Made by a program: the position numbers and the translations under genes. Below the pieces are notes generated by a model, which was not told the DNA's origin, did no database searches, and was given only the letters and a program-made list of their open reading frames with translations. From contig PAAG01000047.1 of assembly GCA_002698785.1 (NCBI GenBank), positions 558,001 through 622,000 of the forward strand: a DNA stretch of 64,000 nt. The letters run 5' to 3'. Source of the DNA: Verrucomicrobiales bacterium. GTDB lineage: Bacteria > Verrucomicrobiota > Verrucomicrobiia > Verrucomicrobiales > DEV007. Shown here in pieces: positions 23,280 through 31,638 of the stretch (position 1 is the stretch's first letter; each line of letters starts with the position of its first letter).

Positions 23280-23435
23280 GAGGAGGGCACTCTGGGGGCA
23301 ACACAGCCTTGTCGCAATAGCGGTCTCATGGATTCGGTCGCCATGATTTTTATTCTCTTTCGCAAAATTGCGAAAATCTAGACTGGACTATCTTGTTTGA
23401 GACGTAAAAGATCAATCATCCACTTTTCGTCACCT

Positions 23436-24320
23436 ATGAGCATCGGACTTCCCGAAGAAGAAACTCCGTTCACGACACCTGTGTCTCCGGGAAATGCCGG
23501 GATACTTGTTGTTGATGAAGACCCCGCATTTCAACTTGGCTTGAAAACCTTCCTTCGCGAATACGTAGGATTTGAGAGCGTTTTCACCGCACGTAGCGGT
23601 ACGGAAGCTCTCGACATTCTCGAAACGGAGGAATCGATCGATGTGGTGACACTCGATTACCAGATGCCCGGAATGAACGGCATCGAATTTCTTCAAGAAC
23701 TCAGCAGACGTAACCACCGCATGCTGAGCGTCATTATGATCACCGGATATCCTTCCGATGAACTGGAAGCGGAGTTTCAAAGTTATCACTCCGACTATCT
23801 TCTTACCTCGAAGTTCCTGACCAAGCCCGTGGAATTTGACCGGCTCGAGCCAATCATTCTTCATTCGCATGAAGAACTACTCGCAGCGAGAAAGGCGAAG
23901 GAAACACCCCCCATCGAGGATCCTGTCGACGATTCCATTCTGGTCGAAGCCGTTGAGATAGAAGATCCCGAGGACCCTCTGAACGAAGAATTTGCCAAGC
24001 AGTCTCGTAAGCTGGGAGAATTGGAATACGAAGTAAAATCTCTTCGAGGAAAATGGAGAGGAGACTTTGTTTTCCTGCTCTTTATCATCGGACTACTCTG
24101 GGTTGCCGGCCAATTTGGAGCGTTCAACTGGCTTGGCGGCGAGTGGGAAAAGACGAAAGTCGACATTGAGAGCGGAATGAGAGAACGAATCGAATCCCTC
24201 AAGAGTGCGACTGAGGAAACATCTGAAGAAGAGGAAGAAGCGCCCGAGGCCGGAGTCGAACCCAATGCCCCCGAATTGGCACCACCGCCGGTCGATAGTG
24301 GCGTTGGAGAGCCGCTTTGA
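23436..24320 (+). CDS. Receiver-domain protein anchored by a C-terminal transmembrane helix
   Basis: The 294-residue protein has an N-terminal receiver: GILVVDEDPAF, VVTLDYQMPGMNGIEF with the phospho-accepting Asp, VIMITGYP, and FLTKPVEFDRL with the Lys. An acidic linker and a short coiled coil (EFAKQSRKLGELEYEVKSLRGK) follow. Next is one membrane helix (FVFLLFIIGLLWVAGQFGAF) and an acidic/proline-rich tail. A receiver tethered to the membrane by its C-terminal part is unusual. The start is ATG 23436. The next small gene follows within 90 nt in the same direction. Confidence 0.85.
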   Translation: MSIGLPEEETPFTTPVSPGNAGILVVDEDPAFQLGLKTFLREYVGFESVFTARSGTEALDILETEESIDVVTLDYQMPGMNGIEFLQELSRRNHRMLSVIMITGYPSDELEAEFQSYHSDYLLTSKFLTKPVEFDRLEPIILHSHEELLAARKAKETPPIEDPVDDSILVEAVEIEDPEDPLNEEFAKQSRKLGELEYEVKSLRGKWRGDFVFLLFIIGLLWVAGQFGAFNWLGGEWEKTKVDIESGMRERIESLKSATEETSEEEEEAPEAGVEPNAPELAPPPVDSGVGEPL

Positions 24321-25948: not shown

Positions 25949-27529
25949 TCACGGAAGATTCAGGATGCGAACAATCTCCTGTATTCCCTCTTTCTGGCGA
26001 TGAACGCCGTGCGGTGAGCCCGTCACAATTTTCTCAGAAACGACTCCTTCAATATGGGCACTCGAGTACGGCACAACACCATCCGAAACTTGATCGAGCG
26101 GAGGACAATCTTTCTCTTTACAGCCAATTATGGAGAAATACTGCACATTGGGGTTCAGCGGCTTATCCAAGTATCCCACCGCAGCAAAGGAGCTTTCCCG
26201 AAGCTGGTCCAAAGAAGAAGGTTTTGCCTTTGCCACCTCCATTCCAAGAGGAGTCAGTGCATTTCGGCTCTGCTTGACGATGTCCTTGGAAAGCTGCGCC
26301 AACTGATTTGGAAGCTGCACCAGATCTCCAACCAGTTTCAAAGGAGCCTTCTCGGGAACTTTACTCCCCCGATGAGGAACAGCACAGAAAATGACTTTCT
26401 CGATCTCGGGGATGGGTTCGTAGTAGACGAGATTCCGAAGGACTTCCCTGTCTTTTTCTTTTACCTCAAGTTGCTCGATCGGAACGGTGAAGAACTTATT
26501 CCAATCCTCATCTCCGGAATGCTGAGTAGCAGCCTTTGCCAACAGCCCGCCCATGCTGTGCCCAATGATCACCAAATCGAGATCTTTCGCCCCACGGCTA
26601 CGGCGAAAGGCGATCAAGTCTTCCACCGCCTTTCTAAACTCGGCAGCCAGATATGGAATCGGTGCGCCGGTCGGATACCCAAAGGACCAGAATTCGTATC
26701 TCTCCCGGATGGACTGGTTCTCGTACATTCCATTAAGAGCTTCTTTCCAAGTGACTGGGCTTGAGTAGATTCCGTGAACCAGGATACACGCCGTTTTCTC
26801 CGGGTCGAAAGCCGACACCCTGTGGATGCCCATCCGGTCTGCAAACTTCTCGTATTTCAGAAATGCAGGGACTTTCAGGAACTGAAATTGCCGATCTTGA
26901 AAATCTCGCGCGAACGGAGCGGTGTAGTCAACAGCGAGGGGGACAGGCCCATCCATACTGCTGAGATTGGCGATTTTCGTAGGATCATACAGTTCGAGTA
27001 TGGGAGAACGAGGCTGGTCGAGGTTCAATACCGCGGTAACCGGATACCATAGTCCAGTCTTGGGAATCATTGGATCCTGCTCAGTCCACTGTTGTCTCAC
27101 AAGTAACGAAGCTCCCACTCCCTCGACCTCAGTCTCCGTCTCAAGCCCCTTCTTTACCCGGACAAAATCAGCAGGAACCACCTCATCAACCAGCCCGATA
27201 GCTCTGACATTGATTGGGTCGACGCGTAGATTCAGTTTTCCTTCGGTCGTATTAATGACGGACAACGCCTGTTTCTCCGTCTCCCAATTCTGCGCAATCT
27301 GTACGACCGCGTTTCTTACTGCGTGGTTGTAATCATGCAATCGCTCTGTGGCAGGCAATCGACCAGAACGTATCTCCTGCCACGTGTTTACGGTGGAATC
27401 GAGTGGAATAGAATGATTTGGCCCCTGCCAGTCCTCCCTGACTTTGACCTGCAAAGCACAGCCCGGGAGCACAATCGCGGCGATTCCCGCTATTGCTGCG
27501 ATCCGGAGTTTTTGCATTGAGTGAATCAT
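25949..27529 (-). CDS. Alpha/beta-hydrolase lipoprotein (lipase/esterase-like)
   Basis: The 526-residue product has a lipoprotein signal (IAAIAGIAAIVLPGC) and is therefore probably attached to the outer membrane. The C-terminal half is an alpha/beta hydrolase: TACILVHGIYSSPVTW (oxyanion region), LVIIGHSMGGLLAKAA with the nucleophilic Ser, an Asp near DQVSDGVVPYSSA, and the final His in SPHGVHRQ. The first ~230 residues form an extra domain with no recognised family. AGGA lies 5 nt before ATG 27529, a rare visible Shine-Dalgarno in this window. The in-frame ATG at 27517 is an alternative. Confidence 0.88.
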   Translation of the reverse strand: MIHSMQKLRIAAIAGIAAIVLPGCALQVKVREDWQGPNHSIPLDSTVNTWQEIRSGRLPATERLHDYNHAVRNAVVQIAQNWETEKQALSVINTTEGKLNLRVDPINVRAIGLVDEVVPADFVRVKKGLETETEVEGVGASLLVRQQWTEQDPMIPKTGLWYPVTAVLNLDQPRSPILELYDPTKIANLSSMDGPVPLAVDYTAPFARDFQDRQFQFLKVPAFLKYEKFADRMGIHRVSAFDPEKTACILVHGIYSSPVTWKEALNGMYENQSIRERYEFWSFGYPTGAPIPYLAAEFRKAVEDLIAFRRSRGAKDLDLVIIGHSMGGLLAKAATQHSGDEDWNKFFTVPIEQLEVKEKDREVLRNLVYYEPIPEIEKVIFCAVPHRGSKVPEKAPLKLVGDLVQLPNQLAQLSKDIVKQSRNALTPLGMEVAKAKPSSLDQLRESSFAAVGYLDKPLNPNVQYFSIIGCKEKDCPPLDQVSDGVVPYSSAHIEGVVSEKIVTGSPHGVHRQKEGIQEIVRILNLP

Positions 27530-27708: not shown

Positions 27709-29070
27709 ATGAATTTTACATGTCCCTCCTGCAGCATCACCCTCCAGGCAGAAGCCGATCTGGCAGGCAAAACCGTAAAATGCCCGGGTTGTTCCACCCG
27801 CATTCAAATACCGGAAGATTTCGGACCTCCCCCGCCTGATGATCATGACACCAGCGCAAGCGAAGAGGTAGCCGACGACTACTACGATCAACTGCCAGAG
27901 CTTAATGTTTCTTCTGCACCCGCTGGCCCCCACCCCTCCTCTGTGAATATCTGGATTGCCGGAGGTATCGGCCTGCTGGCGACCTTCGTGTGGTTTTTCA
28001 TCATGTTCATGCTGCCTGCCAGAGAAACGGCAGAAGAGGCGCACAATATCGGATCTTACCTTCGCGAACTCTTTACCCAGCGTGGCTGGCCGCAGTACGT
28101 GACAACGCTGCTGATGTTCTGGTGTCTCGGAATTCTGATCCTGAAATACGTAAACCTGCTCAAGCAGCGCCGTGCGATGTTGATCCAGGCTTTGCCTACG
28201 GATATTTCCGAAGAGATCAATCCTTCCAACCTGAAGGAGTTCCACGAACACATCATCAACTTCCCCAAACCTTTGCGTAACACCTACATCGTAAACCGAA
28301 TCCGAAAAGCTCTCGAATTCTTCTATGTGAGGCAGAACAACCCCGAAGTTGCGCAAATGATCACGGCGCAGTCTGAGGTCGACGCGGCGAAAGTTGCGGG
28401 CAGCTACTCAATGGTAAAAGTTTTCCTCTGGGCTATCCCGATTATGGGATTCATCGGAACCGTTCTTGGTATCGGTAGCGCTATTGGCGGATTCGGAGCC
28501 GTTTTTGGTGCCGGCGAAGGCGGTGACATGAGCCAGATCAAGGAACCACTGCTGAACGTTCTTGGAAGCATGGGCGTCGCGTTCGATACCACGCTACTCG
28601 CGCTCGTCTTTTCTATCATCCTGAGCTTCCCGGCCAGCGGCCTGCAAAATGAGGAAGACGATCTGGTAACTGACGTCGACGAATATTGCATCGACCACCT
28701 CCTCAAGCGCCTGAACGATGGTGGAGCCGCTTCAAATATCGGTTCAGATGCTGGCCTTTTGAAAGCCATCGGTGATGCGATGGCGAGTAAACAGCAGGAC
28801 ATGATGGGTAGATTTGAGTCGGTCCAGAAGGATATGTCGAAAAATCTCGAAAAACAGACCGACAATTACGAGAAAGTCGCCACTGCTGTGGAGAAACAGC
28901 TCAACGCTATCGGTGACCGCGCCTCTGGCTACGAGAAGACAATCGACAGAGCAATCGAAGGGCAGGTAAAGTCGCTCTCCGAGGGTATCCAGAACCTGAA
29001 TGCGGTCCTCAAAGAATTGAATGGCAAACAAGTTGTGGTTCAGAAAAAAGGCTGGTTCAGCCGTGGGTGA
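27709..29070 (+). CDS. Zinc-ribbon MotA/TolQ/ExbB-type proton channel protein
   Basis: The 453-residue first gene of a motor operon. The N terminus has a zinc ribbon (C5, C8, C25, C28) and an acidic/proline linker. Predicted membrane helices are IWIAGGIGLLATFVWFFIMFML, VTTLLMFWCLGILIL, VFLWAIPIMGFIGTVLGIGSAIGGF and MGVAFDTTLLALVFSIILSF. The last two carry the MotA/ExbB signature. A ~110-residue cytoplasmic coiled coil follows (KQQDMMGRFESVQKDMSKNLEK...). The four-helix layout resembles MotA or ZorA more than ExbB. The start is ATG 27709, and the downstream partner begins 27 nt after its stop. Confidence 0.9.
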   Translation: MNFTCPSCSITLQAEADLAGKTVKCPGCSTRIQIPEDFGPPPPDDHDTSASEEVADDYYDQLPELNVSSAPAGPHPSSVNIWIAGGIGLLATFVWFFIMFMLPARETAEEAHNIGSYLRELFTQRGWPQYVTTLLMFWCLGILILKYVNLLKQRRAMLIQALPTDISEEINPSNLKEFHEHIINFPKPLRNTYIVNRIRKALEFFYVRQNNPEVAQMITAQSEVDAAKVAGSYSMVKVFLWAIPIMGFIGTVLGIGSAIGGFGAVFGAGEGGDMSQIKEPLLNVLGSMGVAFDTTLLALVFSIILSFPASGLQNEEDDLVTDVDEYCIDHLLKRLNDGGAASNIGSDAGLLKAIGDAMASKQQDMMGRFESVQKDMSKNLEKQTDNYEKVATAVEKQLNAIGDRASGYEKTIDRAIEGQVKSLSEGIQNLNAVLKELNGKQVVVQKKGWFSRG

Positions 29071-29097
29071 CGCTTAACTTTGTAAAATCGGGACGAA

Positions 29098-29931
29098 ATG
29101 GCGAGAAGAGGAAACAACGACGGCGAAGGAGTAAATCTTTTTCCCTTCCTGAGTATTCTCGTCTGCATCATCGGGTGCCTGACGCTCATCATTGTGGTGA
29201 TCAACCTCATCGCAATGAACAAAGGCGAAGGGCGCACGCCGAAAGAAGTCGAACGGGCTCAAGAGTTTGTGAAACTTCAGCAGGAGAAAGAGGAAAAACA
29301 GAAAGACCTCGACGAACTGCGCCAGCTTATCGAAAACCTGATTCAAGATAACAAAGATACGCTCGCTGCCCGGGACAAGCTGATGCGTCTCAAGGAGATG
29401 CTGGAAAACCAGGAGGAGGTGCAGGAAAACCGAGAAGAGTTGATTGCGAAGTACAATCTGCTTCTCGATTCCAACAAAAAACTCGTCAGCGACGAGAAGG
29501 TTCTCCAGGAAGAGATCAAAAAGAAGGAAGAAGAGATTGCCAAGCGTAAGCTTCCACCCGATCCGGCAGCGCTTGTCGTTCGCCCCAGTGGAAGTAGTTC
29601 GGTGACCCGCCCGTTCTTTGCGGAGATCTCTGCGAAGGGAATCTACATCCATCGCAGTCTCACAGGAGAACCTGAGGCAATACCTATCGCAACATTGAAC
29701 CAGAGCGAAGAGTTTCAGGAATTCCTCCAAACAATCAATTCTGAAGCGTACAACCGTCTCATCTTCCTTGTTCGGAGCAATCCGGAAGCGGTTCAGACCT
29801 TGAACAAGGCGACAGCTCTGGTTCGAGCATACAACGCGCAGAACGGCAGCGAAATCATTCCAGGTAAACTTCCCTTACCCGGGGAAGGAAAAGTGGACTT
29901 GAACATGTTTGCCCAATACCTCGAACCCTGA
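29098..29931 (+). CDS. ExbD-like motor subunit A, membrane aspartate missing
   Basis: The 277-residue bitopic protein has one N-terminal helix (NLFPFLSILVCIIGCLTLIIVVIN), a long charged coiled coil (about residues 55-150: QEFVKLQQEKEEKQKDLDELR...) and a C-terminal globular region with FAEISAKGIYIHRS and YNRLIFLVRSNPEAV. The latter resembles the ExbD/TolR periplasmic fold. By alignment with ExbD (TPFIDVMLVLL), the proton-binding Asp position is Ser19 here (PFLSILVCI). It therefore probably cannot carry protons itself. It sits between the channel gene and the Asp-containing ExbD-like gene. Confidence 0.85.
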   Translation: MARRGNNDGEGVNLFPFLSILVCIIGCLTLIIVVINLIAMNKGEGRTPKEVERAQEFVKLQQEKEEKQKDLDELRQLIENLIQDNKDTLAARDKLMRLKEMLENQEEVQENREELIAKYNLLLDSNKKLVSDEKVLQEEIKKKEEEIAKRKLPPDPAALVVRPSGSSSVTRPFFAEISAKGIYIHRSLTGEPEAIPIATLNQSEEFQEFLQTINSEAYNRLIFLVRSNPEAVQTLNKATALVRAYNAQNGSEIIPGKLPLPGEGKVDLNMFAQYLEP

Positions 29932-29961
29932 GAAACCGAAGGCAGATTCAACTGATCGATT

Positions 29962-31638
29962 ATGGCACGTAGAAGAAGAGGAGACGACGATCCGGGAATG
30001 GACTCCCTTATGGATGCCCTCACCAACGTGGTGGGTATTCTTCTCCTGATTCTCATCGTCAGCAGCCTGGGTATTCAAGCTGCGGTCAAGAAAGTGGTCG
30101 AAAGCCTCCCGGAAGTTACCGAGGAGCAGTTGGAGTCCATGAAGGCGAGCCGGGACAAGACCCTGAAGAACCTGGAGGAACTTCAACAGACCCAGGCGAA
30201 CGTAGTTGAAAATACCCCCACCGAAGAGGAGGCGAAAAAACTCATCGCTGACCTCGAAGAGTTCGAAGAAGAGAACAAAGACCTCGCAGAGATCACTTCG
30301 GACATCGACGAGTGGATGAAGAAGGTGGAGGAACAGGAAGCGAAGAAGGACGAGAACGAAGAAAAGGTGAAAGTTGCTGATGAGAAGAATCGCGAGCTCG
30401 CTGCGATTCTCGCCCAGACTCCGGAACGGGAAGTCAAAACCGCCAAAGAAGTGCTGATGCCAAATCCCCGCGTTGCCGGGGAGGACTCACAGGCCCTCTA
30501 CATTGTATGTAAGAATAAGAAGCTCTATTTCATTGGCGATCCCTATGAGCATGCCCTGAAGATCCGAGATGTCATTGACCAGAATTATACAGACCTCGCC
30601 TATTCTGGGAAAGGTATCGGGTATTACACCTATACGCTGAAAGGTACTCGAAAGAACGACAACGATTCCTACATTCCTCTCCAAGAAAAAATACGGCTGA
30701 GTCGGCGGGATCGCGAAGCCCTGGCGGTTTGGGATAACTTGAAGCCGACGTGGAAAAACTCCGCAGGCGTGGTCGACACGAAAGAAAGATCGCTCTTGGA
30801 TCGAGTGATTGGGTCTGATGATGAAGCTGAATTGAACGTCGGAAAGTTTCGCTACGACCTGAAGAAGATCCTCACTTTTTTCGGCGACGGCAAATACGGG
30901 CCCAAGGATTTCAAATATCACATCTCTGCCGGGAACGGCGATCGCATCAAAATGCAGTTCGAGATGAAGGAAGATGGAGGCTGGACTCCCGAGCAGTTTC
31001 TCGCGGGCAACTCCCAGTTCGAGCAGTTGTGCAAGCAGGCCCAGAATACGAGGCGGACCCTTTTCTACTACTATGTAGCTGCTGACAGCTTCGAAACGTA
31101 TCTGCAGGCTCGATCCAAATCAGAATCGTTCCGCATTCCTGCAGGCTGGACAGTCTGGGAAGATGACAAGCTATCAGTGCGCCCCCTACCAGTTCGACAG
31201 ACAGTTCAATACAATCTGGATTCCCTCCCTGCTGAAGCCTACATGAAAGTCGCTGAGGCTGCGGCTACTTACCTGGTCGACGAAGCCAACAAAGAGGCCG
31301 CTGAATTCGATGCGCGTGTCGCTGCTCTCGTCCCCGAGGAAGTCAAAACTCCCGAGGAAAAGAACAAGTTTATTACCAAATTGAGCGAAGAGAGAAATGA
31401 GTGGGCTGCACAGCGCCTGCAGAATTACATCACGAGTACATTCCAGACAGCTCTTGCCGCCACAGAAGCTTCCGGTCAGAAAGAGGTAGTCATGGAAATC
31501 GTTCCTCCCGAGATTCCACATATTCGTGTCTTCACCCCCGGGGGACCTCCAAAAGCGCCCAAGCCTGAACCGACAGACAAGAAGCCTCCTCAAAAGCCAA
31601 AGGCTCCGTCATCGGGTAACACTTTGATTCTCGACTAA
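29962..31638 (+). CDS. ExbD-like motor subunit B with membrane aspartate and long periplasmic domain
   Basis: The 558-residue bitopic protein has an N-terminal helix MDALTNVVGILLLILIVSSLGIQ, preceded by MDSL. Asp18 (or Asp14) is at the place of the ExbD/MotB proton-binding aspartate. A very acidic coiled coil (residues ~55-150) is followed by a large domain (RVAGEDSQALYIVCKNKKLYFIGD...), longer than any ExbD or TolR. The C terminus is proline-rich (GGPPKAPKPEPTDKKPPQKPKAP). No OmpA-like peptidoglycan-binding domain is visible. It is 30 nt downstream of the first ExbD-like gene and clearly in the same operon. Confidence 0.85.
   Translation: MARRRRGDDDPGMDSLMDALTNVVGILLLILIVSSLGIQAAVKKVVESLPEVTEEQLESMKASRDKTLKNLEELQQTQANVVENTPTEEEAKKLIADLEEFEEENKDLAEITSDIDEWMKKVEEQEAKKDENEEKVKVADEKNRELAAILAQTPEREVKTAKEVLMPNPRVAGEDSQALYIVCKNKKLYFIGDPYEHALKIRDVIDQNYTDLAYSGKGIGYYTYTLKGTRKNDNDSYIPLQEKIRLSRRDREALAVWDNLKPTWKNSAGVVDTKERSLLDRVIGSDDEAELNVGKFRYDLKKILTFFGDGKYGPKDFKYHISAGNGDRIKMQFEMKEDGGWTPEQFLAGNSQFEQLCKQAQNTRRTLFYYYVAADSFETYLQARSKSESFRIPAGWTVWEDDKLSVRPLPVRQTVQYNLDSLPAEAYMKVAEAAATYLVDEANKEAAEFDARVAALVPEEVKTPEEKNKFITKLSEERNEWAAQRLQNYITSTFQTALAATEASGQKEVVMEIVPPEIPHIRVFTPGGPPKAPKPEPTDKKPPQKPKAPSSGNTLILD

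Follow-up and report, generated by a model that had tools for sequence, protein, structure and literature searches.

A channel protein of the MotA/TolQ/ExbB family encoded with two unlike TolR-like partners, one of them without the proton-binding aspartate, in Verrucomicrobiales

The A-B1-B2 Locus

The subject of this analysis is a cluster of three genes in a 64,000-nucleotide stretch of DNA from a Verrucomicrobiales bacterium (contig PAAG01000047.1, positions 558,001 to 622,000 of the forward strand; hereafter the window, numbered from its first letter). The genes, which lie on a single strand with gaps of 27 bases (A-B1) and 30 bases (B1-B2), encode a channel protein of the MotA/TolQ/ExbB family (A) and two unlike TolR-like partners (B1 and B2), of which B2 carries the proton-binding Asp of the ExbD/TolR family (Asp18) and B1 has Ser19 in its place. 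A preliminary description of this DNA, made from the letters alone, had recognized a motor of the MotA/ExbB type whose two partners are unlike; translation confirms the positions and frames of the three genes, and the PF01618 match of A, together with the TolR-like character of B1 and B2, supports the assignment itself. The features discussed below, some from AlphaFold2 models for which the predicted local distance difference test (pLDDT) is given, are as follows.

27709..29070, + strand: A, MotA/TolQ/ExbB-family channel protein (453 amino acids; four hydrophobic segments; helical C-terminal tail)
27721..27792, + strand: zinc ribbon at the N-terminus of A, Cys5, Cys8, Cys25 and Cys28 (Cys in 79 of 81 aligned rows, gaps in the other 2)
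28333..28677, + strand: PF01618 match, A residues 209-323 (Pfam; spans Thr251 and Thr294-Thr295; invariant columns in 4 rows)
29098..29931, + strand: B1, TolR-like partner lacking the proton-binding Asp (277 amino acids; translation; AlphaFold2 model, pLDDT 83.5)
29152..29154, + strand: Ser19 codon of B1, in the register of the ExbD Asp (hhalign to B2; Ser in 74 and Asp in 4 of 78 readable loci)
29239..29544, + strand: long helix of B1, residues 48-149, taken as coiled coil (AlphaFold2 model)
29575..29880, + strand: putative TolR/ExbD-like domain of B1, residues 160-261 (VIA-align structural matches)
29962..31638, + strand: B2, TolR-like partner that has the proton-binding Asp (558 amino acids; translation; AlphaFold2 model, pLDDT 84.1)
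30001..30003, + strand: Asp14 codon of B2, four residues ahead of Asp18 (Asp in 71 of 74 loci; Val in 3 loci whose B1 has Asp)
30013..30015, + strand: Asp18 codon of B2, candidate residue for proton binding (Asp in all 74 loci; invariant in 42 rows)
30121..30417, + strand: helices of B2, residues 54-152, taken as coiled coil (AlphaFold2 model, block pLDDT about 49-84)
30433..31161, + strand: putative TolR-like domain of B2, within residues 158-400, with a large insert (VIA-align)
31531..31635, + strand: Pro-rich tail of B2 with a conserved hydrophobic-Asp end (C-terminal Leu-Asp 67/72, Ile-Asp 2, Val-Asp 1)

The membership of A in the channel family is indicated by a Pfam scan, in which PF01618 (MotA_ExbB) reached 26.6 bits (E 5.3e-6), above its cut-off of 22.9; this is the weakest of the seven PF01618 matches in the 7.0 Mb genome to which the window belongs. 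Four hydrophobic segments were computed (residues 83-101, 127-145, 238-256, and 289-307), in agreement with the four-helix channel protein first described, and the N-terminal zinc ribbon proposed at the same time is borne out by the near-universal presence of its four Cys residues. A sequence search of the PDB with the A profile retrieved no motor protein and instead a zinc-ribbon protein (5k2m, residues 3-47, E 0.001), and TIGR02098 matched the ribbon at 14.8 bits, below its cut-off of 20.9. In the pore helices, Thr251 and Thr295 are conserved in all 81 aligned rows and Thr294 in 76 of them; judging from their position, these residues are candidates for a pore threonine ring.

Homology of B1 and B2

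A profile alignment (hhalign) of 36 B1 rows with 42 B2 rows yields a probability of 98.9 from the first residue and places Ser19 opposite Asp18, in accord with the register suggested earlier for B1 (there partner A) and B2. Each partner has a single hydrophobic segment, and both consist of one N-terminal membrane helix followed by a long coil and a TolR/ExbD-like domain; the AlphaFold2 models consist of a helix, an extended helical region, predicted with less certainty in B2, and a compact portion. For the fold search, these models were compared with about 1000 chains ranked highest by Foldseek and realigned with VIA-align. E. coli TolR (5by4) ranks first for both partners, with Z 7.3, root-mean-square deviation (rmsd) 4.2 and 89 aligned residues for B1 and with Z 7.7, rmsd 4.1 and 95 aligned residues for B2 (next row Z 6.1); B1 also matches ExbD (8p9r; Z 6.2, rmsd 2.4, 72 aligned), ExbD chains standing at ranks 2, 5, 7, and 15. 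The periplasmic domains, initially described as dissimilar, instead appear to have a common fold, with TolR as the best structural match of each, and to differ in size; the partners are thus alike in kind. Across the family, and with two N-containing reads set aside, B2 is between about 363 and 579 residues long, and therefore the large insert and the helical extension of the window B2 are not general.

Searches with Pfam, NCBIfam and PADLOC returned weak, scattered matches of B1 and B2, mostly to coiled-coil families, none of which we accepted as a family assignment. Sequence searches of the PDB similarly retrieved coiled coils and other helical chains, with no motor protein among the best 60 of 118 matches of the B1 profile and none seen with the B2 profile.

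Conservation of the Gene Set

A profile of four A proteins detected 280 relatives in the species collection; the 80 best of these and the window make up the 81 loci analyzed here. The 80 relatives are mostly Verrucomicrobiales records, with one from Phycisphaeraceae and one from Lentisphaerae; Prosthecobacter and Roseibacillus records are among the carriers of the A-B1-B2 set. Contig ends cut seven of the 81 loci, and in all of the remaining 74, which were used for gene order, A is followed by the B1 motif and then by the B2 motif. The synteny is thus conserved and, because both order and motifs are identical in every untruncated locus, the arrangement is not due to chance.

With respect to the motor site, B2 has Asp in all 74 loci; in B1, readable in 78, the residue is Ser at 74 loci and Asp at only four (L130, L134, L141, and L150), which form one group on the A tree (support 99). 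At position 14, B2 has Asp in 71 of 74 loci, and the three with Val are loci with an Asp-type B1 and a readable B2. The absence of the key residue from B1 might be taken to mean that the locus is an ordinary ExbBD/TolQR paralogue with a degenerate, functionless B1. We consider this very improbable, given that the B1 motif was found in 78 of the 78 loci whose contig extends to B1, that 75 loci encode a complete B1 frame with no internal stop, that Ser is retained in 74 of 78, and that the complete frames extend from Verrucomicrobiales to the Phycisphaeraceae and Lentisphaerae records.

The wider kin of the family comprise 38 further loci of the same phylum and 20 regions from the phylum of L154 (taken as Planctomycetota), in which 32 of 199 genomes match; the 20 regions cover 21 of the 42 listed matches, mostly the strongest. 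With A alone as query, 37 of 145 genomes of the window's phylum match at E 1e-5 or better, some through zinc ribbons only. Read with a membrane-helix profile, the 58 loci of the wider kin display both motifs in 37 cases, one motif in 13 and none in eight. B2 has Asp in all 37 pairs; B1 is neutral in 17 of these (Ser 9, Asn 4, Ala 2, Cys 1, Thr 1) and has Asp in the other 20. We distinguish seven working subfamilies (I-VII, labels of this study; L204 and L206 were assigned by eye). On the A tree (69 rows), which has some long branches and an unsure deep order, the Asp/non-Asp state of B1 changed at least four times, compared to an average of 18.8 for shuffled labels; L002 and L005, poorly filled and misplaced ExbB rows, were removed, with four changes either way.

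Since Asp occurs in B1 in four of 78 loci and in 20 of the 37 pairs, the B1 helix would, by homology, be a pore helix with or without the acid. Conceivably, B1 could instead lie outside the pore, on the side of the A pentamer, and transmit force like TonB or TolA. The lack of Asp in B1 would suit such a role, and TonB/TolA-type helices are reported to bind the motor edge (PMC12204202). Nevertheless, the alignment of B1 to B2 across the pore site, its TolR-like domain and the presence of Asp at that site in four relatives make edge binding improbable.

In the genome of the window, the ordinary ExbD-like helices near other ExbB genes carry Asp in six of six distinct readable cases, and no ExbD-like helix was read near one such gene (L003). 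Another ExbB gene of this genome (L005, C50 around 359749) has three nearby ExbD-like genes, all with Asp. At L050:5304-6212 (- strand), a Gly at the B2 site beside an Asp in B1 represents either a reverse asymmetry or an artefact of sequencing or decay.

One Mixed Axle or Two Homodimers

A profile search of 145 genomes of the phylum at E 1e-8 matched B1 in five genomes and B2 in four, and four are common to both; the fifth B1 match, in G009, is weaker and is a subfamily II protein. Moreover, three genomes of Planctomycetota type have A-B1 alone, and in all three a B2 bearing the Asp motif is encoded on that contig as well, 0.66 to 1.4 Mb away from A-B1 by coordinates. The spacer, that is, the distance from the motor site to the TolR-like domain, is alike in the two partners in subfamily I (153-162 in B1 versus 157-169 in B2, 34 pairs) and subfamily II (170-187 versus 173-193, 9 pairs), a likeness that speaks for the mixed axle discussed next; it is 51 versus 41, short in both, in subfamily V (2 pairs) and, with an unsure alignment, 130-163 versus 131-145 in subfamily IV (3 pairs).

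The homology between B1 and B2, the Asp-type kin of B1, the shared genomes and the retention of B2 where it is unlinked support a mixed axle, in which B1 and B2 would join within one motor (A5-B1-B2) with the acid on B2 only. As judged from the sequences, this is the most likely reading and probably the correct one; it builds on the observed homology, register, conservation and joint presence of the two partners. The same observations favor the heterodimer with one protonatable subunit that was put forward in the preliminary description, homodimers remaining a rival. Specifically, two alternative homodimers might share A, so that a powered complex with two B2 subunits (A5-B2-2) would coexist with an unpowered one with two B1 subunits (A5-B1-2) serving as a plug, brake or decoy. 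Three adjoining genes on one strand are compatible with this arrangement; the periplasmic domain of TolR is dimeric (PMC4646322), and for AglRQS, the gliding motor of Myxococcus xanthus, the choice between hetero- and homodimers of AglQ and AglS is left open in a 2022 review (PMC9389320). However, the joint presence of B1 and B2, even when unlinked, and the Asp-type B1 kin fit a joint axle better, and an inert complex would need a separate reason for its retention. We regard separate homodimers as rather unlikely, and as the main rival outside the mixed axle.

Several observations weigh against a mixed axle or against steps that lead to it. In G126, B2 is located on a different contig from A-B1, which sit at a contig edge, and the three unlinked cases look related and therefore represent one or two events. 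No fused B1-B2 frame was found among 307 frames with a match. The spacers of subfamily III are short in both partners and unequal (B1 49-65 versus B2 41-42, 6 pairs), and in subfamily VI, where the alignment is unsure, a single pair shows 100 in B1 versus 51 in B2. Within subfamily I, the covariation of coil lengths is negative (Spearman -0.43); furthermore, equal coil lengths would also be expected if two homodimers span the same gap. By eye, L050, with Asp in B1 and Gly in B2, is the sole exception to the retention of the acid by B2. At most one partner of this kind is seen, again by eye, in L071, L073, L074, and L075, and the relatives of A thus do not all have a second partner. As for the fold, the structural Z-scores of B1 and B2 are below 8, which calls for caution, and Foldseek alone retrieved nothing at E 0.001 with either model; the TolR-like fold is accepted despite these scores because it agrees with the sequence register. 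Finally, the hidden Markov model search that bore out the MotA_ExbB assignment of A did not do so for the partners: PF02472 (ExbD) gave no match, with E values up to 1 allowed, to either B1 or B2 of the window, and it is not among the 25 commonest of the 160 and 101 families that match the 36 B1 and 42 B2 members, respectively.

The Proposed Motor

Given the above, we propose that five A subunits assemble in the inner membrane into a proton-driven channel like those of the MotA/TolQ/ExbB family and that B1 and B2 each insert one helix in its pore, whereas outside they would pair via their long coils and TolR-like domains. B2 alone would supply the acid to the pore threonines, and B1 would present Ser. 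The stoichiometry, rotation, proton count, direction and path of force and the partner in the envelope are inferred by analogy to motors of this type, for which a 5:2 model has been described (PMC9389320). Asp18 could be the sole proton site, a possibility to which we give somewhat less than an even chance. In the usual rotation model, two sites carry ten protons per turn; provided that this model holds, a single site would imply five protons per turn and non-equivalent arms. The full proposal combines an obligate heterodimer as the axle of a 5:2 motor, a single proton-binding carboxylate, repeated loss or gain of the acid on B1 with its retention on B2, five protons per turn and drive through one arm, the other being passive or anchoring; taken as a whole, it likewise has somewhat less than an even chance.

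A second acid complicates the count. The preliminary description allowed Asp14 as an alternative motor residue of B2; its conservation stands, and the residue in register is Asp18. With Asp14 conserved beside Asp18, B2 would have two acids near the pore, and within a mixed axle these might replace the two Asp residues of a homodimer, making the motor asymmetric and not half-powered. The change of Asp14 to Val where B1 has Asp would keep the acid count at two. However, the three Val loci are one clade and hence one event; elsewhere, by eye, a neutral B1 pairs with an acid-free B2 position (the Asn loci of subfamily III, L066, L072, and L206), and in most of subfamily II an Asp in B1 is combined with Glu or Asp at that B2 position. 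We consider this two-site arrangement unlikely, and it is similarly doubtful that Asp14 serves as a second proton site, which would speak against an axle with a single acid.

In the mixed axle with the acid on B2, B2 would pass force to a partner in the envelope and B1 would be a structural or anchoring arm, which is a guess; B2 is the candidate for the force-transmitting arm because of its Pro-rich tail with a fixed hydrophobic-Asp ending. The C-terminal pair is Leu-Asp in 67 of 72 cases, Ile-Asp in two and Val-Asp in one (the other two reads contain N runs), and the tail ahead of it is often Pro-rich, without a fixed sequence; such a fixed end behind a variable linker points to a docking role. 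Solved structures of ExbD bound to a D-box peptide (8vgc, 8vgd) indicate that the ExbD/TolR fold can accept a short peptide, and one might guess that the B2 tail acts in a like manner. An envelope-spanning force task for the entire A-B1-B2 set is likewise a guess.

This family amounts to a natural experiment, with like channels, like partners and an acid present or absent on one arm, whereby it becomes directly testable how many proton sites a motor has and whether the two arms do different jobs. The usual model posits two equivalent acids in the axle, and the B1/B2 family offers a natural test of how many sites are needed. Furthermore, it marks a putative envelope motor in a phylum of which 138 of the 145 genomes sampled have no TolB_N match.

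Gene Neighborhood and Genome Context

TolB_N gave no match in the genome of the window (G000, 95.9% complete) or in any of the four genomes carrying the B1/B2 set. Replacement of Tol-Pal by the A-B1-B2 set was considered and set aside: TolB_N is present in only seven of 145 genomes of the phylum and, because its lack is so common, there is no contrast.

Five neighbors in the window were scanned with Pfam, yielding alpha/beta hydrolase, ThuA and DUF4350 matches, along with DUF4129 and SHD1 below cut-off. The hydrolase (25949-27529, - strand; PF12697, 27.5 bits versus a cut-off of 26.3) is divergently transcribed and has, by eye, a lipobox-like N-terminus (LPGC). A divergent relative of it is the most shared upstream neighbor, in 28 of the 81 loci; with a maximum of 28 of 81, and with clusters that include spurious frames, we rejected the idea of a conserved neighbor that would reveal the cargo. 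Another window gene (23397-24320, + strand) encodes, by eye, a receiver-like N-terminal part joined to a hydrophobic segment and an acidic tail; such an arrangement is unusual for a response regulator.

In five loci of subfamily III (L044, L057, L058, L059, and L060), a gene of about 660-680 amino acids lies between A and B1; its product has a signal-peptide-like start and, by eye, resembles a repeat-propeller protein. In L202, a frame of 698 amino acids that resembles a Ser/Thr kinase (by eye) separates A from two single-helix partners, each of which has Asp (by eye). A single scan of viral contigs with six peptide patterns of A, which reaches close relatives only, gave no match that would indicate carriage by phages.

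Comparison With Known Systems

The ZorA models of PADLOC match A (best E 4.8e-8, 30.3 bits), which is the likeness to ZorAB of Zorya. Identity with Zorya was nonetheless rejected, as ZorA models alone match: ZorB, ZorC, and ZorD gave no match in four proteins (A, B1, B2, and the product of the next gene), and no OmpA-like domain was found in eight proteins scanned with Pfam, which upholds the initial reading of the cluster as devoid of this domain and of ZorC/ZorD. Moreover, Zorya has a single partner type. TolQR and ExbBD resemble the present system in the channel family, in the TolR/ExbD-like fold and, for B2, in the proton site; they have one homodimeric partner, without a coil of roughly 100 residues, and work with TolA or TonB.

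A TolQ-like gene with an unlike (heterologous) TolR-like pair has been described in bacteria of the Planctomycetes-Verrucomicrobia-Chlamydiae (PVC) group, with TPR and vWA genes beside the tolR-like pairs (PMC12204202); in that report, the TPH-vWA pairs have one Asp per monomer and the Asp of the tolR-like pairs is unstated. The likeness to these systems lies in the TolQ-like channel and the two unlike TolR-like partners; the differences are that B1 lacks the Asp and that the scanned neighbors are of other kinds, no TPR gene before or vWA gene after the set being found among the five scanned in the window. We equate subfamilies II and IV with the published PVC tolR-pair systems because of vWA matches in L055 and L062. 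Both matches are below cut-off; the subfamily II match (L055:6410-7444) falls in the protein encoded after the pair, and the subfamily IV match (L062:6224-7285) in the periplasmic portion of a partner.

The preliminary description further held that a heterodimer with one protonatable subunit would be a different motor design. This stands for the Asp-less partner, of which, as of a heterodimeric ExbD or MotB axle, our literature searches, mostly through listings, gave no description; it does not stand for unlike partners as such, which are already in print both for the PVC tolR pairs and for AglRQS. What is already known is the unlike TolR-like pair with a TolQ-like gene, and what we did not find described is the partner without Asp. 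AglRQS consists of one MotA-like and two MotB-like proteins (PMC9389320, PMC9120999) and is thus similar to the present system in combining one channel protein with two unlike partners; in contrast, the conserved Asp is carried by both AglQ and AglS (PMC9389320), whereas here it is carried by B2 only, with Ser19 in B1.

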